The position numbers and the translations under genes were made by a program. Shown here one piece after another: positions 19,622-31,921 of a stretch of 44,779 nucleotides of DNA. The DNA comes from Pseudomonadota bacterium (lineage in GTDB: Bacteria > Pseudomonadota > Gammaproteobacteria > Burkholderiales > Burkholderiaceae_C). The DNA is taken from NCBI GenBank assembly GCA_018241185.1, contig JAFEEH010000209.1:1-44779 (forward strand), in the 5' to 3' direction. The notes beneath the pieces are model-generated. The model worked only from the letters and a program-made list of their open reading frames with translations. It was not told where the DNA came from and did no database searches. Positions within the stretch are counted from its first letter, which is position 1, and each line of letters opens with the position of its first letter.

Positions 19622-20896
19622 TCATTCGGCAGCAGGCGGCGCGTAGCGCGCCTTCTCGACGTTGCGCAGCAGGGCCTCGCGCTGCGCGCGTGAAATGCCG
19701 CGGACGCCCTCCGCCACCCACTTCACGCGCTGCGGATCGAGGCTGCCTTCGCGTGCCCAGCGCTCGGCGGCCAGGCCGGGCGCGTGCAGCATCGACGCGA
19801 GCCACACGGCCTGCGCGGGCTCGAGCTTGCTCGCACTGCGCTTGAAGTAGTACTTGGCCGCCGCCTCGGCGCCGCAGACCTTGCCCCAGGGCGCGTTGTC
19901 CAGGTACAGCTGCAGGATGCGGGCCTTGCCCAGCGTCTGTTCCATTTCCACGGCATAGAGCATCTCGCGCAGCTTGCGCTCCAGGCTGCGCTCGCTGCCG
20001 GTCACCAGCATCTTCGCCAGCTGCTGCGTGAGGGTGCTGCCACCGCGGTCGATGCCGCCTTTCTTCTGGTTGCTGTCGAGCGCCGCCGAGAGTTCGACCA
20101 GGTCGTAGCCCGGGTGCTGGAAGAAGCGCTGGTCCTCGGCGGCGATGACGGCGCGCGCCAACCAGCTGTCGGCCGTGAGCCGCGAAGGCGGCCCGCAGGC
20201 CGTGCGCGCGCCGAGCATGGCCTCGGTGCCCAGGCCGGCCACGGTGAACTGCGCCACGCGCGGCTGCAGGCCGAAGCTGCCGGTGGGCTGGACGAAGTGG
20301 CCGCGCAGGCCCAGGGTGCCGCCGATCTGGGCCCGCTGCAGTTCGGGCATGTCGGGCACCAGCACGGCATACCACTGGGCGACGGGGGCGTCGGCCATGT
20401 CGACGTCGACCCGCAGGTCGCGCTGGCTGAGTTTGCCGTCCCAGCGCCCGGTGAGCGCCGGAGGCCGGCCGGCGCCGCCGACGGCCGCTGGCGGCGTGGC
20501 CGACAGCTCGCCGGCCAGGCGGTCGGCGTCGCGGCGCACCGTGACCCGCAAGTCGTCCAGGCGCACCGGCTTGGCGCCCAGGGCGGGCACCACGGCGCTG
20601 CAGGGAGCGCAGCGTGCTTCGAGTTGGTGGCCGGCCTGGTTCCAGGCCAGCTGCACGGGGCCGAAGCGGGTGTCGAGCCGGCGGCCGTCCAGGTGCGGAC
20701 CGAACCACGGCGAGGTGGCCAGCCGCACCAGCGTCGGCACGCCCACCTCCAGCCTGAGCGGGCCGATCGGCAGTTCGGCCGCCCACTCGCCCTTGGCCGG
20801 CGCCAGCGCGATCTTCGCGATCAGCACGAGCGCCACCCCGCCCGTCACCACCAGGGCCAGCAGCCCGTACAGCACCACTCGCAAAGTCTTCTTCAC
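19622..20896 (-). CDS. Monofunctional peptidoglycan glycosyltransferase (GT51) with long N-terminal extension
   Basis: The 424-residue protein has one N-terminal membrane anchor (residues 8-31), a roughly 200-residue beta-rich extension and a GT51 lipid II glycosyltransferase domain from about 235. GT51 motifs are clear: IAAEDQRFFQHPGYD (catalytic Glu254), GGSTLTQQLAKML, RKLREMLYAVEMEQ and KARILQLYLDNAPWG. There is no transpeptidase domain, so it only polymerises glycan chains. The extension (residues 40-230) is not found in ordinary MtgA and may be an AsmA-like or protein-interaction module. It follows the EpsI-like gene by 49 bases on the same strand, linking cell-wall synthesis to the exosortase operon. 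Confidence 0.85.
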   Translation of the reverse strand: MKKTLRVVLYGLLALVVTGGVALVLIAKIALAPAKGEWAAELPIGPLRLEVGVPTLVRLATSPWFGPHLDGRRLDTRFGPVQLAWNQAGHQLEARCAPCSAVVPALGAKPVRLDDLRVTVRRDADRLAGELSATPPAAVGGAGRPPALTGRWDGKLSQRDLRVDVDMADAPVAQWYAVLVPDMPELQRAQIGGTLGLRGHFVQPTGSFGLQPRVAQFTVAGLGTEAMLGARTACGPPSRLTADSWLARAVIAAEDQRFFQHPGYDLVELSAALDSNQKKGGIDRGGSTLTQQLAKMLVTGSERSLERKLREMLYAVEMEQTLGKARILQLYLDNAPWGKVCGAEAAAKYYFKRSASKLEPAQAVWLASMLHAPGLAAERWAREGSLDPQRVKWVAEGVRGISRAQREALLRNVEKARYAPPAAE

Positions 20897-20945
20897 ACGG
20901 CTCCCAATGCACTCGGTCTCGCGTTCCGTCCGTTGGTGGCGACGC

Positions 20946-21515
20946 TCACAGCGGCGTGGCCACCGTCACCGCCTGCCACGGCCCGGAAGAGCGCCCGCTG
21001 GCACCCGCCCAGTACCAGGCCGAAGTGTCGGTGAAAGCGTCGCCCCGGGCGTCCACGATGCGCTCGCACACCCGCAGTTTGGCCTGCCCGCCACGCTCGG
21101 CGTTGAAACAGCGCCACAGCCGCGCCCGGGCGTCCTGCTCGAGGCGCGCCTGCACGATGCGGTAGCCCAGGGCACGGTAGCAATCCGCGGCTGGGTGCAG
21201 CATGCGCGTGGGCCGGTCGACCTGCCGCATCACGAACATGCGCTCGCCGTCGGTCAGGCGTGCGATGGCGCCGGGGAAGTGGGCCGCGAAGCGCAGCTCG
21301 ACTTCGCTGAGCGCCAGCGGGCGCAGTGCAGCACCGTCCCACTGGGAGGGCCATTCCTGCGTGCTGGCCATGCGTGGAGCCGCGTCCTGCGACCGCGCCA
21401 GGCCCAGCAGGCCAAGCGCCAGGCAGCCGAGCATGGCGAGCGCGAAGACCGCCTTGTGCAGCGCACGGTGCACGAAGGTGTTGGCGAAGTAGCGTTCAAT
21501 GGTGCGTATCGACAT
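20946..21515 (-). CDS. EpsI-like exosortase-associated protein
   Basis: The 189-residue protein has one N-terminal membrane helix (AVFALAMLGCLALGLLGLA) and a periplasmic domain resembling EpsI, the usual partner of exosortases: RMLHPAADCYRALGYRI recalls the HxxxxC..GW segment, and SAWYWAGASG closes the domain. Its start overlaps the end of the exosortase gene by 20 bases, so the two are co-translated. EpsI-type proteins are thought to assist exosortase processing or polymer export; the exact action is unknown. Confidence 0.75.
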   Translation of the reverse strand: MSIRTIERYFANTFVHRALHKAVFALAMLGCLALGLLGLARSQDAAPRMASTQEWPSQWDGAALRPLALSEVELRFAAHFPGAIARLTDGERMFVMRQVDRPTRMLHPAADCYRALGYRIVQARLEQDARARLWRCFNAERGGQAKLRVCERIVDARGDAFTDTSAWYWAGASGRSSGPWQAVTVATPL

Positions 21516-22446
21516 GGCGCAGGCCTTGGAAGGTGATGAGTCCGGTCACGGGCGGCAGGGGTGCGGCAACCGGTGCGTGGCGCCGGCCGCGATGCTGCAT
21601 CGCCCAGGCAATGCCGCTGCACACGGCCGCGAGCAGCACGAGGCCCAGCATCTCGTGCGCCCAGGGCGCGAGCGGCCGGCCCGCGCCTTCGAGGCCGACG
21701 AGGATGGCGTTGCGAACCACGTTGCCGGCCAGCACCAGGACGCTGACGGCCGGCAGGCGAGTGAGAAAGCGGCGGTTGTCCACGGGCGCGACGAAGAGCG
21801 CCACCGCGCACGCCGTGAAATACCCCAGCCACACCATCTGCACGCCCGAGCACGGCGCATCGACGATCACGAGCCGGCCGGCGATCCACAGGCTGCTGCC
21901 CTCGCGCATCACCGTGAAGAAGGGCGCCAGCAGCCACTGGCTGGCCTCGGCCGTGACGACGCGCAGCGGGTAGCCGGCGTAGAACTGCAGCGACGACAGC
22001 AGCGGCAGGGCCAGGACCGCCAGTCCGGTGACCGGCAGGCTCGCGACCCGGCGCGGCAGGAAGGCCAGCAGGCCGAAGGCGAAAGCCATCACGGACACCA
22101 GCCCCGTGACCAGCGGCGGCAGCACGGGCAGGCCCGGCACGCCGCCGCGCAACAGCGTCGCCGCCACCGTGCCGAGGCCGGCCAGCGCCAGCCAGCCCAG
22201 GCCGGGCGCCGCGCGCAGGCCGCGCCGGTGCTGCCAGGCGAGCACACCCAGGGCGGCCAGGGCCAGCAACCCGAGCGGATCGTCGGAACCGTCGGCCAGG
22301 CGCATCGCCATCCACACCCAGGTGGGCAGCAGCGCGGCAGCCTGCAGCGCCAGCCAGGCGATGGGCGGCAGGCGGTCGAGGCGGATGCCCGCATCCACCC
22401 AGCGGGGGTGCCGGCGGGCCAGCGAGGCGAGGGACAAGCTGCTCAT
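21496..22446 (-). CDS. Exosortase (transpeptidase-like membrane protease)
   Basis: The 316-residue integral membrane protein has about eight hydrophobic segments and the exosortase catalytic set: Cys199 in VDAPCSGVQMVWLGYF, Arg245 in GNVVRNAILVGLEG and His264 in PWAHEMLGLVLL. Exosortases cut PEP-CTERM-like tails from exported proteins and are the Gram-negative counterparts of sortases. The gene starts 7 bases after the stop of the VIT/vWA gene, whose product carries such a tail, so this is probably a dedicated one-substrate enzyme. The subclass cannot be assigned with certainty from sequence alone; the XrtQ-like group is a possibility. Confidence 0.85.
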   Translation of the reverse strand: MSSLSLASLARRHPRWVDAGIRLDRLPPIAWLALQAAALLPTWVWMAMRLADGSDDPLGLLALAALGVLAWQHRRGLRAAPGLGWLALAGLGTVAATLLRGGVPGLPVLPPLVTGLVSVMAFAFGLLAFLPRRVASLPVTGLAVLALPLLSSLQFYAGYPLRVVTAEASQWLLAPFFTVMREGSSLWIAGRLVIVDAPCSGVQMVWLGYFTACAVALFVAPVDNRRFLTRLPAVSVLVLAGNVVRNAILVGLEGAGRPLAPWAHEMLGLVLLAAVCSGIAWAMQHRGRRHAPVAAPLPPVTGLITFQGLRHVDTHH

Positions 22447-22453
22447 CGCTGCC

Positions 22454-24532
22454 TCAGGCCGTCAGGCGGCGCTTGTCGTGGCGACGGGCACGGCGGCGCA
22501 GCATGGCCAGCATCGACAGCGCGACGGCCACCGCGCCGAAGATCTCGGGCTCGGGCGTGCTGGGCACTTCGGCGCCCAGGGCGTTCTCGCCCACCCCCTG
22601 CGGCAGCGGCAGGGGCTGGTTCACGCTGTCGCTGCCGGCCGTGTTGCGCACCACCTTGTCGACGGCGATGAAGCTGGTGTACTGCGTGAGCAGGCTGTAC
22701 TTGAGGCCCAAGTCGGTGATGGCCTGCTTGTAGCGGTCGCCGGCCTCCAGCGCCTCCTGGTCGGACAGCGCGGCGATGCGGTGGCGCGCCCACAGCGCCC
22801 GCAGCGCGCTGGCGTTCTGCGCCGTGCGGCCGTCGATGCGCAGTTCCTGCTTCCACGGACCGCTGGCGCTCTGGCCCTCGATCGTCACGCCGCCCTTGGG
22901 CTCGCCGCGCCACTTGCCGAACACGATCACCGGCCGCTCGCCGAGCACGTCCGGCAGCTGCTGCGGCTCGACGTCGTACACATCGAGGCCGCCGAAGGTG
23001 GCGCGCACCTTCGTCAGTACGGGCGATTCGACCATGCGGCGAAAGCGCGCCGCCTGCTCGGGCGCCTGCACCGGGTCGGTGATGATGAAGGGCTCGCCCA
23101 TGCCGGCGCGGGCCAGGCCTTCCATGAGGTGACGGTTCACCGACGAGCCGATGCCGAAGGAAAAGAGGTTGGCCTTGTCGAGGTTCCTGCGCACGAGTTC
23201 GAAGGCCTCGCGCTCCACCGTCACGTAGCCGTCGGTCACGACGACGATGCTGCGCGAGACATTCGCGGCCTTGGGTTCGGCGTACACGCGCTTGAGCGCG
23301 GGGATGAGTTCGGTGCTGCCGTTGCCGCTGTAGTTCTTGATGGTGGCCAGGGCCTGCTCGATGTTGGCACGCGTGGCCGGCACGGACTGCGCGTTGAGCA
23401 TCCTGTTGCTGCCCGAGAAGAGCAGCACGTTGAAGGTGTCGCTGGGGCGCAGGCCGCCGATCAGGCGCTCGAGCATCGCCTTGGCGGTGTCGAGCGGAAA
23501 GCCGTGCATCGAGCCCGAGATGTCGACCACGAAGATGTAGTCCCGCGGCGAGATGGCGCTGGCCGCAACCGATTTCGGCGGCTCGACCATCGCCAGGAAG
23601 AAGTTCTCCGCGCCGTCGCCGTTGCCCTTGTAGAGCATCAGGCCCGATTCGATTTTCTCGCCCGCAAGACGGTAGTCGATGACGACATCGCGGTTGTCCA
23701 GCGGGCGCCCATCGGCACGCAGGGCCACGTCGGCGTGGTGGGCCTCGTCGCTGGTCTTCACGTCGATCGCATGGGTGAGCGAGCGCACTTCCTTGATGCC
23801 CATCGGCGTGTCGATCGCGACCTTCATCTTGAACGACGTATTCGGCGCCACGTTGGCACGCAGCGTCGGCTGAGCGACCCACTTTGCCTGTGCGTTCTCC
23901 GACTGCGGGCTGTTGTATCGCGGGCCCACCACGGTCGGGAACACGAACTGGTAGTTGCCGCCCTGCGGCACCAGCAGCTCGGTGTAGCGCAGTTCGACCT
24001 TCACGTCGTCGCCGGGCAGGATGTTGGCGACGTTCATCTGGAACACGTTGGGCAGCTGCTGCTCCAGCAGCGCGGCGGTCTTGCCTTCCTGCTTGGCGGT
24101 CTCGTATTCGATGCGGGCCTGCTGCTTCTCGCGGATCTGCGCCGTGATGAGGCGGTCGGCCAGGCGCACGGTGAGGCCGCCCACGGCCGCCTTCGTGGAT
24201 CCTGGGAACACGTACTTGGCCTCGATCGGGCGCTGGCCTTCGTTGCGGTAGGTCTGGGTGACGGTGACGTCGGCGATCACGCCCGAGATGCGCACGTCGA
24301 CGTCGGTGCCCTTGAGGGGCAGGCGGTCCACGTCCGGCGAGTCGCTCTTGACGAAGAAGTAGGGGCTCTCCGTCTTCTGGCGGGGTGCGGCCTCCTGCGC
24401 GTGCAGCGGCCGGGCCGTCAGCAGGACGAAGCAGGTGGTGGCCAGGCTGACGGTGGCAAGCCAGAGCCAGCGGCCGGCGCGCGGCGCCGTGGCGGCGGAG
24501 GGGATGGGTTCGGTGAGGGTGGCGGCTTCCAT
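22454..24532 (-). CDS. VIT and von Willebrand factor A domain protein with C-terminal sorting tail
   Basis: The 692-residue exported protein has a signal region (about residues 22-45, cleavage near LHAQ), a VIT domain (about 75-200: YRNEGQRPIEAKYVFPGSTKAAV, LEQQLPNVFQMNVANILPGDDVKVELRY) and a vWA domain with a complete MIDAS site starting at DISGS (Asp337, Ser339, Ser341), for metal-dependent ligand binding. The C-terminus has STPEPEIFG, a hydrophobic stretch (AVAVALSMLAMLRR) and an Arg-rich end, the tripartite PEP-CTERM-like layout. It resembles the target proteins of proteobacterial dedicated sortases (TIGR03788-type), but the adjacent enzyme is an exosortase. AAGGAG lies 8 bases before the ATG. 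First gene of the operon, with a CreB-type box upstream. Confidence 0.88.
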   Translation of the reverse strand: MEAATLTEPIPSAATAPRAGRWLWLATVSLATTCFVLLTARPLHAQEAAPRQKTESPYFFVKSDSPDVDRLPLKGTDVDVRISGVIADVTVTQTYRNEGQRPIEAKYVFPGSTKAAVGGLTVRLADRLITAQIREKQQARIEYETAKQEGKTAALLEQQLPNVFQMNVANILPGDDVKVELRYTELLVPQGGNYQFVFPTVVGPRYNSPQSENAQAKWVAQPTLRANVAPNTSFKMKVAIDTPMGIKEVRSLTHAIDVKTSDEAHHADVALRADGRPLDNRDVVIDYRLAGEKIESGLMLYKGNGDGAENFFLAMVEPPKSVAASAISPRDYIFVVDISGSMHGFPLDTAKAMLERLIGGLRPSDTFNVLLFSGSNRMLNAQSVPATRANIEQALATIKNYSGNGSTELIPALKRVYAEPKAANVSRSIVVVTDGYVTVEREAFELVRRNLDKANLFSFGIGSSVNRHLMEGLARAGMGEPFIITDPVQAPEQAARFRRMVESPVLTKVRATFGGLDVYDVEPQQLPDVLGERPVIVFGKWRGEPKGGVTIEGQSASGPWKQELRIDGRTAQNASALRALWARHRIAALSDQEALEAGDRYKQAITDLGLKYSLLTQYTSFIAVDKVVRNTAGSDSVNQPLPLPQGVGENALGAEVPSTPEPEIFGAVAVALSMLAMLRRRARRHDKRRLTA

Positions 24533-24641
24533 GAAGGGCTCCTTGAGATCGGTGTGCGTCGAAGCGCAGCGCCACTGTCGAAGGCCGCCGAGAAGCCAGA
24601 AGGAAGCGCACGAGAAGCGATGTCGAAGCCGCGCGCGCTGT

Positions 24642-24657
24642 GTGAAGTCCGTGTGAA
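24642..24657 (-). promoter_or_regulatory. CreB-type box (cre-tag)
   Basis: On the minus strand this reads TTCAC-ACGGAC-TTCAC, an exact match to the TTCAC-N6-TTCAC direct repeat bound by CreB and its homologue BlrA. It lies between the divergent VIT/vWA gene (110 bases from its ATG) and creD (94 bases from its ATG), so one site could serve both. CreB and CreC are encoded in this window. Confidence 0.8.
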
Positions 24658-24751
24658 GTGGGGGTGCGAAACACTGGCCCGCGGCTTCATACGCGCTTCC
24701 GGCGGCGCACGGACCATCGGCCCCCATCGCATCCACGGAGAGGAAACCAAG

Positions 24752-26260
24752 ATGTTCCAGACCCTTCGCAACTCCGCACTCGTCAAGGTGCTCGCGCTGG
24801 TGGCGCTCACCCTGCTGCTGTGCATCCCGCTGGCCGAGATCGGCTCGCTGATCCGCGAACGCGGCCAGAGCCAGGCCGAGGCGGCCCAGGAGCTGGCGAG
24901 CACGCACGCCGGCGCGCAGACCGTGGCCGGCCCCTTCCTCGTGCTGCCCTGGGTCGAGCAATGGACCGAGACCGAACACAACATCAAGGGCGAGGTGACG
25001 GGCCAGTCGCAGCGCACCAAGGCACGTACCGCCATCGTCTTTCCCGAGCGGCTGAAGATCGACGGCCGCATGACACCCGAAGAACGCTACCGCGGCATCT
25101 TCCGCGTGCTGTTCTACAAGCTCGACGCCACGCTCGACGGTCGTTTCGCCGCCCTGGGACCGGTGCCGAGGCCCACTGAGCGGGGCGGCACCGTGACGCT
25201 GGGCACACCGCAGCTGGCCTTCAGCGTGAGCGACGTGCGCGGCATCGAGGGCTTGCCCGACGCGGCGCTGAGTGGCACGCCGATGCGCTTCCAGCAGGGC
25301 ATCCCCGGCCTGGGCCAGGGGGGTGCGCTCCAGGGCATCCATGCGCCGCTGTCCGGCGAGGCACTGAGCGCGCTGGCGAGCGGCCAGGCGATGGACTTCC
25401 GCCTCGCGTTGAAGCTGGTCGGGCAGGAACAGCTGAGCATCGTGCCGGCGGCCGAGGACACCGAGGCCCATCTGCAATCGCCCTGGCCGCACCCGAGCTT
25501 CGGCGGCCGCTTCCTGGCCAGCGAGCGCACGGTGGGCGACGCCGGCTTCGACGCCCGCTGGCGGGTGTCGGCGCTGGTGAGCGCGGCGCGCACGCAGCTG
25601 TTGCGCCAATGGGCTGCCGAGGCGACGACGCCGGGCGCGGTCGACGTGGCCTGCGCCGGCGGCGACAGCGCGTGCATGGCGGCGGCCACGGCTGCCACGG
25701 CCACCGCACCTGCACGGGCCGACCTGCGCGAGGTCGACAGCTTCGACGTCGCACTGGCGCAGCCCGTCAACGTGTACTTCATGGCCCACCGCGCGGCCAA
25801 GTACGGCGCGCTCTTCATCGGCCTGGTGCTGATGGCCAGCTTCATGTTCGAGCTGTTCCGCCAGCTGCGCCTGCACCCCGTGCAATACGGCCTGGTCGGC
25901 CTGTCCGTGGCACTGTTCTTTTTGTTGCTGGTGGCGCTGTCGGAAAAGCTACCCTTCTGGCAGGCCTATGCGCTGTCCGCCTGCGCGAGCGTGGGGCTGC
26001 TCATGGCCTACTTCAGCGCGGTGTTGCGTGGCTGGCGCCGCGGTGTGGGATTGGGCGCTTTCGTGGCCGTGCTGTATGGCGCGCTGTACGGGCTGCTCGC
26101 CTCGGAGAACAATGCGCTGCTGCTCGGGGCCCTGCTGACCTTCGGCATGCTGGCGCTGTTGATGCTGGTGACACGGAACGTCGACTGGTATGCGCTGTCT
26201 GATGGGAGGGCCCGGCCCGCCGCGCCAGCCGCCGCCACCGGCCCAGCGCTATCGAATTGA
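24752..26260 (+). CDS. creD: CreD-family inner membrane protein
   Basis: The 502-residue protein has one N-terminal membrane helix (LVKVLALVALTLLLCIPLAEIG), a large periplasmic domain (SLIRERGQSQAEAAQELASTHAGAQTVAGPFLVLPW is a CreD hallmark) and a C-terminal block of five or six helices beginning VNVYFMAHRAAKYGALFIGLVLMASFMFELFRQLRLHPVQYGLVG. CreD is the classic output gene of CreBC and affects envelope integrity and beta-lactam response; its biochemical role is unknown. The ATG at 24752 has a GGAGAGGAAACC Shine-Dalgarno region. The last codons (CTA TCG AAT TGA) come from a copy of the 63-bp repeat. The periplasmic domain has an Ala/Thr-rich insert around 310-330. Confidence 0.93.
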   Translation: MFQTLRNSALVKVLALVALTLLLCIPLAEIGSLIRERGQSQAEAAQELASTHAGAQTVAGPFLVLPWVEQWTETEHNIKGEVTGQSQRTKARTAIVFPERLKIDGRMTPEERYRGIFRVLFYKLDATLDGRFAALGPVPRPTERGGTVTLGTPQLAFSVSDVRGIEGLPDAALSGTPMRFQQGIPGLGQGGALQGIHAPLSGEALSALASGQAMDFRLALKLVGQEQLSIVPAAEDTEAHLQSPWPHPSFGGRFLASERTVGDAGFDARWRVSALVSAARTQLLRQWAAEATTPGAVDVACAGGDSACMAAATAATATAPARADLREVDSFDVALAQPVNVYFMAHRAAKYGALFIGLVLMASFMFELFRQLRLHPVQYGLVGLSVALFFLLLVALSEKLPFWQAYALSACASVGLLMAYFSAVLRGWRRGVGLGAFVAVLYGALYGLLASENNALLLGALLTFGMLALLMLVTRNVDWYALSDGRARPAAPAAATGPALSN

Positions 26261-26310
26261 TAGCTGACGGCGCACGCCCCATGGGCGCTGGCGGCCGATT
26301 TCATTCTCAA
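26248..26310 (+). repeat. 63-bp-family repeat, copy D, supplying the creD stop codon
   Basis: GCTATCGAATTGATAGC opens the copy; GCGCACGCCC.ATGGGCGCTG forms the second stem, then GGCCGATTTC. The first arm contains the TGA stop of creD. It ends about 20 bases before the penicillin-binding protein start. Confidence 0.85.
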
Positions 26311-26330
26311 GTTTCGGATTTCTCCTTCCT

Positions 26331-28760
26331 ATGTCTTCCACGTCTCGCCTCTGGTCTCCGCGCGCCAAGCGCATCGCGCTGTGGAGCGCGGCCGGGGTGG
26401 GCGGGGCCATCGCTGCGGGCCTTCTGGCCATCGGCATCGCCCTCGTCCTCATCGCACCGCAGTTACCCGATGTTTCATCTCTGGCCAACTACCAGCCCAA
26501 GCTGCCGTTGCGCGTGTACACCGCTGACGGCGCGCTGATCGGCGAGTTCGGCGAGGAGCGCCGCGAACTGGTCCCGATCGACAAGATCCCACGCGTGCTC
26601 AAGGACGCGGTGCTGGCCACCGAGGACGCGCGCTTCTACCAGCACGGGGGCATCGACACCAAGGGCGTGCTGCGCGCGGTGTTCGCCAATCTCTCGGGCG
26701 GCCGGGCGCAGGGTGCGTCGACCATCACGCAGCAGGTCGCGCGCAACATGTTCCTCACCTCCGAGCGCACCGTGAGCCGCAAGCTCAAGGAGGCGATCCT
26801 GGCCTGGCGCCTGGAGGACAAGCTCACCAAGGACCAGATCCTCGAGATCTACATGAACCAGATCTACCTGGGCAACCGCGCCTATGGCTTCGCGGCCGCC
26901 GCACAAACGTACTTCGGCAAGCCGCTGGAGCAGATCACCGCCGCCGAGGCCGCCATGCTGGCCGGCCTGCCCAAGGCACCCGGCACCAACAACCCGGTGG
27001 CCAACCCGCGACGCGCCGTGGCACGTCAGCAGTACGTGATCCAGCGCATGGTCGAAACCGGCTACCTGAAGCCCGCCGACGCCGAAGCCGCGCGCGCCGA
27101 ACCGCTGAAGCTGCGCGAAGCCAACGACCCCTCGCGCGTGCACGCCGAGTACGTGGCCGAGATGGTGCGCCAGCAGATGGTCGACAAGTTCGGCGATGCG
27201 GCCTACACGCGGGGCCTGAACGTGACGACCACGCTCACCGCTGCCGACCAGAACGCCGCGTACGCCGCGCTGCGCGCCGGCCTGCTCGACTACGAGCAGC
27301 GGCAGCCCTACCGCGGCCCCGAAGGCCTGGTCGCCGACCTGCCCACCGATCCGAAGGCGCTCGACCAGGCCATCGACGAGGCGCTGGCCGACCATCCCGA
27401 CAACGGCGAGCTGGTGGCCGCGGTGGTGCTGGAGGCGGGCCCGAAGAAGATCACCGCGGTGCGCGCCAACGGTGACACGGTCGAGATCACCGGCCGCGGA
27501 TTGCAGCTCGCGCAGCGCGCGCTGAACGACAGGGCGCAGGCACCCGTGCGCATCCAGCGCGGCGCCATCATCCGGCTCGAGCCCAACGGCAAGTCCTGGG
27601 AAGTGGCCCAGCTGCCCGAGGTGGAAGGCGCCTTCGTCTCGCTCGACCCGCGCGACGGGTCCGTGAAGGCGCTGGTCGGCGGCTTCGACTTCAACAAGAA
27701 CAAGTTCAACCACGTCACGCAGGCCTGGCGCCAGCCGGGCTCGAGCTTCAAGCCCTTCATCTACTCGGCCGCGCTCGAGAAGGGCTTCGGCCCGTCGACG
27801 GTGGTGAACGATGCACCGCTGGTGTTCGACTCCGCCGCCACCGGCGGCCAGCCCTGGGAGCCGAAGAACTTCGAAGGTGGCTTCGACGGCCCGATGAGCC
27901 TGCGCACCGCACTGCAGAAGTCGAAGAACCTGGTGACCATCCGCGTGCTCGACGCCATCACGCCGCAGTACGCGCAGGAGTGGATCGGCCGCTTCGGCTT
28001 CGACCCGGCCAAGCACCCGGCCTACCTCACGATGGGCCTGGGCGCCGGCTCGGTCACGCCGATGCAGATGGCCGGCGCCTACGCCGTCTTCGCCAACGGC
28101 GGCCTGCGCGTGCAACCGCAACTGGTGACGCGCATCGCCGACGCGCGCGGCCAGATCATCGAGGAATCGCCGCTGCCGAAGGTCGACGAGGCGCAGCGCG
28201 CCATCCCCGCACGCAACGCCTTCGTGATGGACAGCCTGCTCAACTCGGTGGTGAGGAGCGGCACCGGCTACAAGGCGTACGCGGCGCTCAGGCGCGACGA
28301 CCTGTACGGCAAGACCGGCACCACCAACGATTCCTTCGACGCCTGGTTCGCCGGCTTCCAGCCCACGCGCGTGGGCATTGCCTGGGTGGGCTACGACACG
28401 CCACGGCAATTGGGCGTGCGCGGCGAGACCGGCGGCAGCGTGGCGCTGCCCGTGTGGACCGCCTACATGAAGACCGCGCTCAAGGGCGTGCCGGTCGCCA
28501 AACTGGCCGTGCCCGAAGGCGTGACCGACATCGGCGGCGATTGGGCCTACAACGAATACGCCAACGGCGGCGGCGTGCAGGCGCTCGGCGTGGAGCCCAC
28601 GGCTCCGCTGATGCCGGGCAGCGGCCCCGAGGCCGGCACGGTGCCGGGAATGGGCAGCAACGTGCCGGCGGAGTTGGGTGTGTTCCCCATGGGGCAGCAG
28701 GCCCCTGGGGCGCGGCGCGACTCGCCGGAGCGCAACCGCATCCTGGACCTGTTCCGCTGA
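26331..28760 (+). CDS. mrcA: Penicillin-binding protein 1A (bifunctional class A PBP)
   Basis: The 809-residue protein has an N-terminal membrane anchor (about 20-43), a GT51 domain with catalytic Glu98 (ATEDARFYQHGGID), GASTITQQVARN and KDQILEIYMNQIYLG, and a transpeptidase domain with SxxK at Ser471-Lys474 (PGSSFKPF), SxN at Ser531 (SKN) and KTG at Lys661 (YGKTGTTNDSFDAWF). It polymerises and cross-links peptidoglycan and is a target of beta-lactams. Length is close to that of other PBP1A proteins. It follows creD on the same strand, 70 bases away with the repeat between. Placement beside creD and near creBC fits a wall-stress locus. It converges on the next gene with a gap of 16 bases. Confidence 0.94.
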   Translation: MSSTSRLWSPRAKRIALWSAAGVGGAIAAGLLAIGIALVLIAPQLPDVSSLANYQPKLPLRVYTADGALIGEFGEERRELVPIDKIPRVLKDAVLATEDARFYQHGGIDTKGVLRAVFANLSGGRAQGASTITQQVARNMFLTSERTVSRKLKEAILAWRLEDKLTKDQILEIYMNQIYLGNRAYGFAAAAQTYFGKPLEQITAAEAAMLAGLPKAPGTNNPVANPRRAVARQQYVIQRMVETGYLKPADAEAARAEPLKLREANDPSRVHAEYVAEMVRQQMVDKFGDAAYTRGLNVTTTLTAADQNAAYAALRAGLLDYEQRQPYRGPEGLVADLPTDPKALDQAIDEALADHPDNGELVAAVVLEAGPKKITAVRANGDTVEITGRGLQLAQRALNDRAQAPVRIQRGAIIRLEPNGKSWEVAQLPEVEGAFVSLDPRDGSVKALVGGFDFNKNKFNHVTQAWRQPGSSFKPFIYSAALEKGFGPSTVVNDAPLVFDSAATGGQPWEPKNFEGGFDGPMSLRTALQKSKNLVTIRVLDAITPQYAQEWIGRFGFDPAKHPAYLTMGLGAGSVTPMQMAGAYAVFANGGLRVQPQLVTRIADARGQIIEESPLPKVDEAQRAIPARNAFVMDSLLNSVVRSGTGYKAYAALRRDDLYGKTGTTNDSFDAWFAGFQPTRVGIAWVGYDTPRQLGVRGETGGSVALPVWTAYMKTALKGVPVAKLAVPEGVTDIGGDWAYNEYANGGGVQALGVEPTAPLMPGSGPEAGTVPGMGSNVPAELGVFPMGQQAPGARRDSPERNRILDLFR

Positions 28761-28776
28761 GGGTCTCGGCAGAGGT

Positions 28777-29355
28777 TCAGCGACGCAGCGGCGTGAAGCA
28801 GCCGGCCCGTGCACACGAGGCCGCGCTGCGCCAGTGAATCGCGTTCCAGTCCAGCGGATTGCGCGGCCGGTCGCGGTTCAGGAAGACGCCCGCGCCTGAT
28901 GGCCGCGACCAGCCCACGAGCCGAATGCCGGCCACCGCCTCGTCCTGCGCCGCCGTCGGCGTGCCGAAAGTCTGGAGCAGGTAGCGGGTCGCTGCGCGGT
29001 GCTGCCACCACGGCATGTTGACCACCACCTCGTCGAGCCTGCCATCCTGGAAGAAGAAGGACAGGTAGAGGGTGGGCATGCCGTTGTACCGGTGCGCCTC
29101 GACCCGGCAGCCGCGGCTGCCGGCCACGTTGACGCGGTAGGGACCACAGAGGATCGGCAGGCCCGCGAAGCGTTCGCGCAGATCCGCTTCGGTCCAGCGC
29201 TCCGACAGGTCGTCCAGCGCGAAATCGGCCGGCGGCCTCGGTCGCGAAAAGACGAACTGCGCGTATTCCTCCATGCCGTCGGGCTGCCACCGCCACAAGG
29301 CCGCGACCGCGACGACTGCCGCCAGACCACAGAACAGCGCGACCCTTCGATTCAT
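28777..29355 (-). CDS. Uncharacterised exported or membrane-anchored protein
   Basis: The 192-residue protein has an N-terminal hydrophobic segment (VALFCGLAAVVAVAALW), which could be an anchor or an uncleaved signal. The remaining domain has four Cys (GPYRVNVAGSRGCRVEAHRYNG, AASCARAGCF), FALDDLSERWTEADLRERFAGLP and many Trp residues. No family is recognised. It lies between the penicillin-binding protein gene and creC, 112 bases downstream of creC on the same strand, so it could be an accessory gene of the Cre locus. Function unknown. Confidence 0.7.
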   Translation of the reverse strand: MNRRVALFCGLAAVVAVAALWRWQPDGMEEYAQFVFSRPRPPADFALDDLSERWTEADLRERFAGLPILCGPYRVNVAGSRGCRVEAHRYNGMPTLYLSFFFQDGRLDEVVVNMPWWQHRAATRYLLQTFGTPTAAQDEAVAGIRLVGWSRPSGAGVFLNRDRPRNPLDWNAIHWRSAASCARAGCFTPLRR

Positions 29356-29467
29356 CGTCTACCCCCCTGTCGTGCGGGCCAGTGTCACACGCTCGCACTC
29401 TCGTGCGCCAGAACGATGAACCGCCACGCGCAGTCCGCGTCGAAGACCGCACCTTCGGCGGACGCGC

Positions 29468-30946
29468 TCACAGGCCGATCCGCCCGGAATCCCGTGGCAG
29501 GTGGCTCAGGGGCAGGGTCAAGGTCGCCACCGCGCCACCACCGGCCGCATTGCCCAGCTCGATGCGCCCACGGTGCAGGGTGGCGATCTCCTTGACGAAG
29601 GCCAGGCCCAGCCCGGTGCTCTTCTTCTGGCTGTGCGGCCGCGCCAGCGAATAGAACTTCTCGAACACCTTGTCGCTCGCGTAGTCGGGGATGCCGGGGC
29701 CGTGGTCGCGCACGGTGATGCGCACCTGGCGCGAAGTGGCGGACAGTCCGAGCACGACCTCGCCGCCCACGGGAGAGAAGTCGATGGCATTGGCCAGCAG
29801 GTTGCTCACCGCACGACGCAGCAGGAAGGGATCGCCCTCGGTGGCCGCATCGGCACGCAGCTCGATCCGCACCTGCACCTGACGCAGCGAGGCGGTGGCC
29901 TGCGCGCCGTCGGCCACCTCCTCGAGCAGGGGGCGCAGCGCCACGGGCTCGATGCGGTCGAGCACGCGCCGCGTCTCGAGCGCGGTGAGCTCCATCATGC
30001 GGTCGACGATTTCCTGGATGCGCTGCGTCTCGCGCGCGATATTGGCCAGGAAGCGCTCGCGCTGCACCGGCGGCATGCCTTCTTCCTGCAACAGTTCGGC
30101 CGCGCCGCGGATGGCCGAGAGCGGACTCTTCACCTCGTGCGTGAAAGTCTGGACGTAGTCGGCGACGTAGTTGCGGCCGGTGACCGCATCGCGCATCTCG
30201 TGCACGGCGCCGCGCAGCATGCCGACCCCCTGGCGCACCATGCGCACGGGGTGAAAACCACGCTGCCGCCGCAGCCAGCGCAGGTAATCGGCCGTGAGGC
30301 CGAAGGGCCGTACCAGCCACACCGAGAGGATGAGCGCGAAGACCAGCAGCGCGGCGGCCGAGCCGATGCCCACCCACAGCGTGCGCGTGCGCGCGTCCTC
30401 CACGAACTGCCCGAAGCTCTGCACCGGCTTGCCGACGCTGACCATGCCGACGATCTCGCCGTTCCAGCGCACGGGCGCGCCGACGTACATCACCGAGCTC
30501 AGCGGATCGGACTCGACGTCGCGCGACGAGCGTGCGCCGTACTGGCCCGCGAGCGTGCGGTTGACGTCGCGCCACTGCGAGAAGTCGGCACCGGTGGCGC
30601 GCCCGGTCGAGTCGAAAAGCACGTGCCCCGCGCGGTCGGTGACGTACACGCGCAGTTCCACGCGCCGCTTGTGCAGGTTGTAGATCTGCGCCGAGAACTC
30701 GCGCGCGTAGACGGTGCGGAACAGCGGCTCCAGCCGCGCCGTGTTGATGGCACCAGCCACGACGTCCTGCTCGACCAGGCTGGCGATCAGCTGCGAGGTC
30801 TCGACCAGCGACTCTTCCGCCGACTCGCGGTAGCGCGGGTCGATGTCGCCCATCACGCGGTACAGCAGGAAGCCGATGCCCACCACGTAGATGAGCAGGA
30901 TGCCGATGAAGATGCGGGTGCGGCGCGAAAGCATCAGGCGTGGCAC
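29468..30946 (-). CDS. creC: CreC sensor histidine kinase
   Basis: The 492-residue kinase has two membrane helices (about 11-30 and 190-213) around a periplasmic sensor domain with DIDPRYRESAEESLVETSQLIASLVEQ and DPLSSVMYVGAPVRWNGEIVGMVSVGKP, both CreC hallmarks. The cytoplasmic part has the phosphoacceptor His270 (TFTHEVKSPLSAIRGAAELL) and an ATPase domain (DHGPGIPDYASDKVFEKFYSL, KSTGLGLAFVKEIA). CreC responds to growth conditions and, in some pseudomonads, to penicillin-binding protein inhibition. The first start is GTG at 30946; ATG at 30934 is an alternative and neither has a clear Shine-Dalgarno. Two repeat elements separate it from creB by 207 bases. Confidence 0.93.
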   Translation of the reverse strand: MPRLMLSRRTRIFIGILLIYVVGIGFLLYRVMGDIDPRYRESAEESLVETSQLIASLVEQDVVAGAINTARLEPLFRTVYAREFSAQIYNLHKRRVELRVYVTDRAGHVLFDSTGRATGADFSQWRDVNRTLAGQYGARSSRDVESDPLSSVMYVGAPVRWNGEIVGMVSVGKPVQSFGQFVEDARTRTLWVGIGSAAALLVFALILSVWLVRPFGLTADYLRWLRRQRGFHPVRMVRQGVGMLRGAVHEMRDAVTGRNYVADYVQTFTHEVKSPLSAIRGAAELLQEEGMPPVQRERFLANIARETQRIQEIVDRMMELTALETRRVLDRIEPVALRPLLEEVADGAQATASLRQVQVRIELRADAATEGDPFLLRRAVSNLLANAIDFSPVGGEVVLGLSATSRQVRITVRDHGPGIPDYASDKVFEKFYSLARPHSQKKSTGLGLAFVKEIATLHRGRIELGNAAGGGAVATLTLPLSHLPRDSGRIGL

Positions 30947-30952
30947 GCGTTT

Positions 30953-31017
30953 GCTATAAAACTCATAGCTGCTCGCGCAGGCGGGACGGGCGCTGCGGGC
31001 CGATTTGGCATAAAAAA
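30953..31017 (+). repeat. 63-bp-family repeat, copy E
   Basis: GCTATAAAACTCATAGC opens the copy, followed by TGCTCGCGCAGGCGGGACGG, GCGCTGCGGGCC and GATTTGGCATAAAA. It is one of the most complete copies. It lies between creC and creB, immediately next to a second kind of repeat. Confidence 0.88.
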
Positions 31018-31025
31018 GCGGACCT

Positions 31026-31124
31026 CCATACGCGAAGGACGCAAAGGCTTCGCGAAGCTCGCGAAAGACATCCTTCCGATTTTTTTCGCGTCCTTTGCGT
31101 GACCTTCGCGTCCTTCGCGTACGG
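31026..31124. repeat. Element with 22-bp terminal inverted repeats (family 2, copy 2)
   Basis: CC.TACGCGAAGGACGC.AAGG occurs at 31026-31047 and, as its reverse complement, at 31103-31124, with two mismatches. The interior has further GCGAAG/CTTCGCG arms and a T7 run. It shares GGACGC/GCGTCC and the 11-base GCG rhythm with the element at 12767-12895. It sits inside the creB-creC intercistronic gap. Confidence 0.8.
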
Positions 31125-31153
31125 CTGCCCGTTCCCGATTCCGCACCCGCATC

Positions 31154-31921
31154 TCAAGGCGTCGACCTCGCCGGCAGGTCCTCGTTCAGCGCATAGCCCG
31201 TGCCGCGCAGCGTGCGGATCGGGTCGACCTCGGGCGCCACGGCCTTGAGCTTGGCGCGCAGGGTCTTGATGTGGGCGTCCACGGTGCGGTCGAAGCTGTC
31301 GCTCGCGTCGTCCCACACCATCGACAGCAGCTCGTCGCGCGTGAACACGCGGCCGGGCCGCTGCACGAACAGGCGCAGCAGGCCGTATTCGTAGCGCGAC
31401 AGCTCCAGCGGCCGTCCGTAGTAGCGGATCAGCATGCGCTCGGTGTCGACCACGAAGGGCAGCGGTGCCGACGGTGGTTCCGGCACTGGCGCCGGGGCAG
31501 CAGCAGGCGCCGGGGCAGCCATGCCCGCGCGCTGGCTGCGCCGCAGGATGGTGCGCACCCGCGCCACCAGTTCGCGCGGCGAGAAGGGCTTGGCGATGTA
31601 GTCGTCGGCGCCGAGTTCCAGCCCCACCACCCGATCGATCTCGTCGCTGCGGGCGGTGAGGAAGACCATCGGCACCTCGGCGCCGCCGGTGTTGCGCATG
31701 CGGGCCTGCAGGCGCTTGAACAGTTCGAAGCCGTTCATGTCCGGCAGGCCGACGTCGAGGATGGCCAGCGCCGGCGGCTCGGCCTCGAAGCTCGCGATCG
31801 CCGCCTCGGCCGTGGCGCACCACACAGGCGTGAAGCCGTCGCTCTGCAGCACGTACTGCAGGGTGTCGGCGATGCCGGATTCGTCTTCGGCGATGAGGAT
31901 GCGCGGCCGCGTGCTGGACAT
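31154..31921 (-). CDS. creB: CreB response regulator (OmpR family)
   Basis: The 255-residue regulator has a receiver domain with phosphoacceptor Asp56 (AILDVGLPDMNGFELFKRL) and Lys111 (GADDYIAKPFSPRELVARVRTILRR), an Ala/Pro-rich linker (about 130-155) longer than that in E. coli CreB, and a winged-helix domain (SRYEYGLLRLFVQRPGRVFTRDELLSMVWDDASDSFDRTVDAHIKTLRAKL). The wording of both domains follows E. coli CreB closely. It binds TTCAC-N6-TTCAC direct repeats; such a site lies upstream of creD. It starts 21 bases after the methyltransferase-like gene and precedes creC. Confidence 0.93.
   Translation of the reverse strand: MSSTRPRILIAEDESGIADTLQYVLQSDGFTPVWCATAEAAIASFEAEPPALAILDVGLPDMNGFELFKRLQARMRNTGGAEVPMVFLTARSDEIDRVVGLELGADDYIAKPFSPRELVARVRTILRRSQRAGMAAPAPAAAPAPVPEPPSAPLPFVVDTERMLIRYYGRPLELSRYEYGLLRLFVQRPGRVFTRDELLSMVWDDASDSFDRTVDAHIKTLRAKLKAVAPEVDPIRTLRGTGYALNEDLPARSTP

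Follow-up and report, generated by a model that had tools for sequence, protein, structure and literature searches.

In a 44,779-nucleotide stretch of DNA from a bacterium of the Burkholderiaceae_C (hereafter the window, by which we mean the whole stretch analyzed), a minus-strand operon at 19622–24532 encodes, in order, a VIT/vWA protein with a C-terminal sorting tail, the exosortase XrtQ, an EpsI-like protein, and a GT51 peptidoglycan glycosyltransferase. creD is divergent to it, and creC and creB are nearby. We judge it probable that these genes make up a dedicated, CreBC-controlled protein-sorting system for a single substrate, working along the steps set out under Proposed Mechanism and Alternatives. 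The genes, their order, the CreB boxes ahead of the operon, the co-occurrence of XrtQ with CreC, and a separate clade of CreC sequences are observed directly. An initial annotation of this DNA had proposed a single target with its own exosortase and a GT51 enzyme in the same operon, and that core is upheld; the genes it named (VIT/vWA, exosortase, EpsI-like, GT51, creD, a class A penicillin-binding protein (PBP), creB, and creC) are all present. The features are as follows.

22454–24532, minus strand: VIT/vWA target protein, 692 residues (Pfam VIT, 119.9 bits; VWA_3, 64 bits)
22454–22615, minus strand: C-terminal sorting region of the VIT/vWA protein (tail alignment and tail profile)
21496–22446, minus strand: exosortase XrtQ (NF012182, 373.3 bits; cut-off 270)
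20946–21515, minus strand: EpsI-like membrane-anchored protein (similar to the C-terminal part of XrtT, E 5e-9)
19622–20896, minus strand: GT51 peptidoglycan glycosyltransferase (PF00912, 147.8 bits; cut-off 27)
24642–24657, minus strand: CreB box TTCACACGGACTTCAC, oriented toward the VIT/vWA gene (exact TTCAC-N6-TTCAC)
24614–24627, minus strand: second phased half-site pair, TTC-N8-TTC, starting 30 bases past the start of the first box
29468–30946, minus strand: creC, sensor kinase of the XrtQ-type CreC clade (NF008312, 579.2 bits; cut-off 356)
31154–31921, minus strand: creB, response regulator (NF008296, 304.8 bits; cut-off 273)
24752–26260, plus strand: creD, an optional neighbor that shares the intergenic region with the CreB box (NF008712, 460 bits; cut-off 275)
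26331–28760, plus strand: class A PBP, an incidental neighbor (TIGR02074, 607.5 bits; cut-off 508.75)

XrtQ scores over the model cut-off in 61 of 399 genomes of the family. The sampled set consists of 60 fetched loci and the window (61 in all); G148 and G118, in which XrtQ is split, are excluded from the counts. A named set comprises 80 loci, the best of 243 relatives and mostly from Variovorax. The loci are related by descent, so box counts are not independent events.

Substrate and Exosortase

The VIT/vWA protein has a signal-peptide-like N-terminus (read by eye) and carries DISGSM, a motif like the metal ion-dependent adhesion site (MIDAS), which recurs as D[IV]SGSM in 58 of 58 copies longer than 600 residues. 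It ends in a tripartite tail, VPSTPEPEIFGAVAVALSMLAMLRRRARR, made up of VPSTPEP, a transmembrane helix, and an Arg-rich segment. The tail has the motif, helix, and basic cluster of a PEP-CTERM target and scores 16.3 bits with neighbors against TIGR02595 (cut-off 16). Nothing else in the genome matches the PEP-CTERM model (TIGR02595, E ≤ 1), and a tail profile that we built likewise has one match there (E ≤ 0.1), the VIT/vWA gene. The idea that many other proteins of this genome carry matching tails, which the initial annotation had raised as a point against itself, is not upheld, as the genome has just this one. When 48 of the 61 XrtQ genomes were searched with the profile, the VIT/vWA gene was the top match in each; further matches at E ≤ 0.001 occur in six, one of them reaching only the first 16 positions and lying in a second VIT/vWA gene. 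The motif V-x-x-[TA]-P-E is present in the tails of all 61 loci, and PEP in 57.

The window exosortase passes the curated XrtQ model NF012182 as well as the superfamily model TIGR04178 (43.3 bits, cut-off 23). It misses the TIGR02602 cut-off (31.8 of 105.55 bits) and is the sole match to that model at E ≤ 0.001 in the 5.34 Mb genome. Cys199, Arg245, and His264, the residues singled out in the initial annotation, are exactly right and are invariant in 41 of 41 aligned XrtQ sequences.

Two genomes encode a second VIT/vWA protein of a different kind. In G015 (L102, 8612–11143), a C-terminal OmpA domain replaces the sorting tail; the OmpA domain is a peptidoglycan-binding module, and this paralogue hints at a wall location for proteins of this kind. 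In G126 (L103, 7892–10276), the second protein seemingly ends in a plain C-terminal transmembrane segment, and no sorting enzyme was recognized among the adjoining open reading frames.

Conservation of the Operon

The order VIT/vWA–XrtQ–EpsI-like holds in 61 of 61 sampled loci, with GT51 next in 59, so the conserved neighborhood that the initial annotation had suggested looking for in relatives is there. Sixty of the XrtQ genomes carry the VIT/vWA gene itself (TIGR03788, E ≤ 1e-60). The named set, drawn from Xenophilus, Variovorax, Pseudacidovorax, Xylophilus, Ottowia, and relatives, has VIT/vWA in 79 of 80 loci, EpsI-like in 79, and GT51 in 75; L143 begins at XrtQ, and L165 ends after XrtQ, before GT51 could show. 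Remnants occur as well: in G148 (L109, 1–3291), creB–creC–box leads into a short leftover piece of the VIT/vWA C-terminus and then the beginning of XrtQ.

Outside the family, a class-wide sample of 368 other genomes contains XrtQ-like exosortases (E ≤ 1e-30) in three. G707, from another family, has the arrangement creB–creC–box–VIT/vWA–XrtQ–EpsI-like. In G697 and G556, an exosortase that falls short of the XrtQ cut-off is accompanied by an EpsI-like gene, by a large PEP-tailed protein in which VIT is found by Pfam (G697) or by eye (G556), and by a CreBC-like pair that is under the CreB and CreC cut-offs in G697 and recognizable by similarity only in G556. In two families of the class other than Burkholderiaceae_C, at L100 (4641–10968) and L101 (1534–8337), a divergent XrtQ relative and an EpsI-like gene stand beside a CreBC-like pair, together with a large protein that has a PEP tail and an N-terminal transmembrane part.

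The other neighbors in the window are far less constant. The initial annotation had tied the operon to creD and peptidoglycan synthesis and listed a class A PBP nearby; we reject both genes as integral components because of their sparse presence, the PBP occurring in 10 of the 61 loci and creD in 13, with CreD encoded anywhere in just 25 of the 61 genomes. A 192-residue protein at 28777–29355, between the PBP and creC, has no family match; of the 61 loci, one contains it, which is presumably the window. No RNA family reaches its gathering threshold in the window, and a promoter scan of the VIT/vWA–creD intergenic region found none.

CreB Box and Second Half-Site Pair

The CreB box has the consensus TTCAC-N6-TTCAC (PMC3660660). 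The window has one exact box against 0.03 expected, in the gap between the VIT/vWA gene and creD, which the initial annotation had not noticed; the 5.34 Mb genome has three. Of the 59 sampled loci that hold the 500 bases upstream of the VIT/vWA gene, 55 have an exact box there, every one pointing to the gene. Elsewhere in 1.127 Mb of sampled loci there are three boxes, and the reversed-pattern control yields two in all. At three of the four boxless loci (L060, L090, and L092), a box with one mismatch occupies a similar position; L077 is the remaining one. The named loci behave in the same way, with a box in 77 of the 78 that hold this stretch, none elsewhere in them, and a reversed control of 0 in 1.56 Mb; the single boxless locus carries a one-mismatch box. 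Counted over the whole of 60 genomes, there are 282 boxes versus 103 for the reversed pattern (medians 4 and 1), so that many boxes outside the operon may be chance occurrences.

The box is retained where creBC is unlinked, for example in G091, and 14 of the 17 loci that have upstream sequence and no creB found in the stretch are still boxed. We also collected 60 CreC loci from genomes without XrtQ over the cut-off. In these, creD is adjacent in 54 and a box lies on the creD strand in 38, with only two other boxes in 879 kb; a box before creD in 38 of 54 suggests that this is a site of CreB in the family. A box serving only creD is rejected for the XrtQ loci, because it points to the VIT/vWA gene in 55 of them and creD is present in so few.

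The first box is followed by more of the same. A TTC-N8-TTC pair lies within 90 bases after it in 53 of the 55 box-bearing sampled loci and in 77 of 77 box-bearing named loci; control windows of equal length contain one in 165 of 14,806 cases. Measured from start to start, the distance between the first box and the pair is 30–33 bases in 40 of 55 sampled and 40 of 77 named loci; a range of 30–43 bases takes in 50 of 55 and 75 of 77. It is common for several such pairs to occur, in 11-base phase. Among 40 box-bearing loci without XrtQ over the cut-off, the second pair occurs in five, which are exactly the five whose CreC falls in the XrtQ-type clade described below, and in none of the other 35. 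That the second pair tracks this clade suggests that its CreB may read a tandem site.

Association with CreBC

CreC is encoded in 60 of the 61 XrtQ genomes, the one exception being 76% complete, as against 100 of the 338 genomes without XrtQ over the cut-off (Fisher 2e-26, uncorrected for kinship). CreD was found in 25 and not found in 36, so creD is not what keeps CreBC there. Both creB and creC lie in the fetched stretch, on the operon strand, in 42 of the 61 loci; in others creC is far away, at about 45 kb in G091 and 1.9 Mb in G017.

We built a CreC tree by a quick method from 109 sequences, which represent 46 of the 61 XrtQ genomes, G707, two remnants, and the 60 genomes without XrtQ over the cut-off. 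The remnants are G148, whose XrtQ is split over contigs and under the cut-off, and G334, whose contig ends inside the VIT/vWA gene. The last 60 were taken from 100 available, the first 20 being mostly top-scoring and the next 40 mostly lower. The CreC sequences of all 47 tested XrtQ genomes, including the unlinked cases, and of both remnants lie on one side of a long branch (Shimodaira–Hasegawa-like approximate likelihood ratio test, 100). With this clade, the boxes, and the near-universal CreC, CreBC looks like a dedicated regulator of the exosortase operon, as judged from comparative genomics. The initial annotation had named CreBC as the two-component partner, and the case is now firmer than it was put there.

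EpsI-like Protein and GT51 Enzyme

The EpsI-like gene overlaps xrtQ by 20 bases in the window; the two overlap or are fused in 54 of the 61 loci, nine of which have a single fused gene. Similarity to the C-terminal part of XrtT is found in 35 of 35 EpsI-like homologues. The window protein has no Pfam match at E ≤ 1, and this includes PF11984 (DUF3485), which we take to be the EpsI family; two of 44 aligned proteins match that model, the best at E 0.19. A Foldseek search of the PDB with its predicted structure (predicted local distance difference test score 89.1) gave no match at E ≤ 0.001, the best being E 0.048. The protein (20946–21515 of the window) also has an invariant His-x3-Asp-Cys (residues 107–112) and a second invariant Cys (136), which could be functional.

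In the GT51 protein, Glu254 and Glu311, presumably the catalytic pair of the family, are invariant in 43 of 43 sequences, and the structure model matches the Aquifex peptidoglycan glycosyltransferase 3nb6 (E 4e-11). Since the active-site Glu residues are invariant and the model matches peptidoglycan glycosyltransferases, the enzyme is likely active. It scores 138 bits against the MtgA model TIGR02070, under the cut-off of 182.65, and it has an extra beta-rich N-terminal domain at about residues 39–220. This domain has no PDB match in Foldseek, and all 26 matches at E ≤ 0.001 are to peptidoglycan glycosyltransferases or class A PBPs. The domain contains an invariant CxxC at residues 96–99; two more Cys residues, 234 and 341, are nearly invariant.

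Proposed Mechanism and Alternatives

We propose that CreC, of the subfamily that goes with XrtQ, phosphorylates CreB, and that CreB would then bind the tandem box pair and switch on the single operon. The VIT/vWA protein would be exported and retained in the inner membrane by its VPSTPEP–transmembrane–Arg tail. XrtQ and its EpsI-like partner would cut the tail and transfer the protein to an acceptor in the envelope, as expected from the exosortase/archaeosortase family. GT51 should polymerize lipid II, and nascent peptidoglycan glycan might be the acceptor or the place of anchoring, which is the weakest step of the scheme. The outcome would be an envelope-linked, MIDAS-bearing adhesive or scaffolding protein deployed under the conditions that activate CreBC. 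In XrtQ genomes CreBC may sense wall stress and the product may serve in glycan repair, as the initial annotation supposed; inactivation of PBP4 triggers CreBC in Pseudomonas (PMC2654508), and CreBC of E. coli is described as responding to carbon source and oxygen (PMC3962086).

Several observations weigh against this scheme or parts of it. The comparison of CreC presence between genomes with and without XrtQ over the cut-off ignores kinship. The CreC sequences of 15 of the 61 XrtQ genomes are outside the tree, and of the 60 from genomes without XrtQ over the cut-off, eight fall inside the XrtQ-type clade and 52 on the other side. These eight are G027, with a truncated XrtQ after the box; G129, with a box followed by GT51 and none of the other three genes; L215, L219, and L247, which have creD with a box; L226, which has creD and no box; and L225 and L234, which have neither. 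They likely reflect loss or decay. L077, from G017, has no box, and its VIT/vWA gene is reduced to a 203-residue remnant, the only such case among the 61. GT51 is missing from sampled loci L057 and L076 although the sequence continues, is not found within 4.5 kb in named loci L170, L171, L175, and L179, where the sequence also continues, and was not detected after XrtQ in G707. Conversely, G129 (L214, 8961–10591) has XrtQ-type creBC and tandem CreB boxes followed by GT51, and VIT/vWA, XrtQ, and EpsI-like were not found there. Taken together, the XrtQ loci without GT51 and the case of G129 indicate that neither GT51 nor the exosortase strictly requires the other.

There are several readings of what XrtQ does with its cut substrate. 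In Methanosarcina, a lipid-synthesis gene beside artA prompted a test in which cleavage failed without the lipid-synthesis enzymes (PMC7157517). The same reasoning from a neighboring gene, applied to the GT51 gene of this operon, would point to lipid II or glycan. The specific proposal that XrtQ joins its one VIT/vWA substrate covalently to lipid II or nascent glycan, made in part by GT51 under the specialized CreBC pair, is one we offer tentatively and think rather unlikely as a whole, and a protein joined to peptidoglycan in this way is a conjecture from gene content. We give appreciably more credence, just short of an even chance, to the same regulated system with a membrane lipid or other small molecule as the acceptor and with GT51 as a co-regulated wall-repair enzyme. 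Substrates of archaeosortase A are lipid-anchored, and cleavage by ArtA is blocked without PssA or PssD (PMC7157517); G129, which keeps GT51 under a CreB promoter without an exosortase, and the XrtQ operons that have no GT51 fit this reading as well. Against it, GT51 is present in 59 of the 61 loci, which by the artA-neighbor logic would speak for lipid II or glycan, and no lipid-synthesis gene was recognized beside XrtQ in the window (read by eye).

XrtQ might instead be a protease only, releasing the VIT/vWA protein into the periplasm or medium with no covalent acceptor. Cutting and releasing is the simplest chemistry, the EpsI-like and GT51 proteins could have other roles, and the parts of the literature covered describe no bacterial exosortase product; the conserved Cys/Arg/His triad, on the other hand, is of a transpeptidase-like kind, as is the triad of ArtA, and we consider this reading improbable. 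Very improbable indeed, in our estimate, is that the link to creBC is positional inheritance, with the operon sitting in a conserved region and the boxes serving creD. creD does share the intergenic region here, and the box does serve creD in relatives without XrtQ over the cut-off. Yet in each of the 55 box-bearing sampled loci the box is oriented toward the VIT/vWA gene, the fetched stretch includes creD in 13 of 61 loci, no CreD was found in 36 of the genomes, the box persists where creBC lies at a distance, and CreC forms an XrtQ-associated clade. The scheme we prefer remains that of a dedicated, CreBC-controlled sorting system with one substrate.

Comparison with Known Systems

To our knowledge, the acceptor of bacterial exosortase substrates is not known. 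Many exosortase genomes hold twenty or more substrates (PMC3237569). With one substrate, one enzyme, a candidate acceptor-making enzyme, and a candidate switch, the acceptor question becomes a one-operon experiment, for which this operon of a soil bacterium could be used. CreBC, known mainly for its responses to carbon source and beta-lactams, gains a putative target that is conserved in 26 of the genera sampled. Inter-alpha-inhibitor heavy chains have the same VIT/vWA architecture, and their cut C-terminus is ester-linked to glycan. If the lipid II or glycan reading were true, the operon would echo them, would amount to an exosortase-based system for inducible wall anchoring in Gram-negative bacteria, and would provide the first identified acceptor for a bacterial exosortase.

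XrtQ already has a name as an NCBIfam family, and there are earlier reports of VIT/vWA proteins bearing PEP-CTERM tails and of ones paired with dedicated sortases (PMC3237569). Our searches of the open-licence literature showed no paper connecting an exosortase with CreBC or a VIT domain, and none dealing with XrtQ. What is new here is that a specialized CreBC pair and a tandem site are assigned to an exosortase operon with a single substrate and, in most cases, a GT51 enzyme. The VIT/vWA "vault" family is described with GlyGly-CTERM, LPXTG, and PEP-CTERM tails and with the cognate sortase adjacent in the LPXTG case; its PEP-CTERM case is from Verrucomicrobium spinosum, and the part of the paper available gives no link to CreBC, EpsI-like, or GT51 (PMC3237569). 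The PEP-CTERM/exosortase system of XrtA/EpsH (PMC1569441) shares the exosortase and the tripartite PEP tail. It differs in having many targets, whereas the window's genome has one; the operon described here also has its own two-component regulator, and its exosortase misses the TIGR02602 cut-off. The XrtN system (TIGR04476/TIGR04477) likewise pairs an exosortase with a VIT-domain target, but the window target has no TIGR04477 match at E ≤ 1 (cut-off 250). The L100 target reaches 118 of those 250 bits, under the cut-off, and the divergent XrtQ relatives in L100 and L101 may bridge the XrtQ and XrtN systems. With the CreBC–CreD/BlrAB regulon (PMC3660660, PMC2654508) the system has CreB, CreC, and the TTCAC-N6-TTCAC box in common; an exosortase operon as a conserved target, the second half-site pair, and the separate CreC clade set it apart.

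A close parallel in design is the proteobacterial dedicated sortase system (TIGR03784/03785/03787/03788), in which one homologous VIT/vWA target likewise has its own sorting enzyme and two-component pair. Here the enzyme is an exosortase, the tail is PEP-like and not LPXTG, the regulator is CreBC, and the EpsI-like and GT51 proteins are added. Membership of that system is rejected, because the VIT/vWA protein scores 421.2 bits against TIGR03788 (E 7e-126), under its cut-off of 551.65, which is reached in 0 of the 399 family genomes, and CreC and CreB reach 100.1 of 612.2 and 128.8 of 335.7 bits against TIGR03785 and TIGR03787. The operon position of the adjacent sortase (TIGR03784) of the dedicated system is held by the exosortase here. 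The wording of the initial annotation, that an exosortase has taken the place of the sortase, is better replaced by convergence, as the VIT/vWA family was already known with GlyGly-CTERM, LPXTG, and PEP-CTERM tails (PMC3237569). The operon represents a further way for a VIT/vWA protein to have its own anchoring enzyme and two-component switch.

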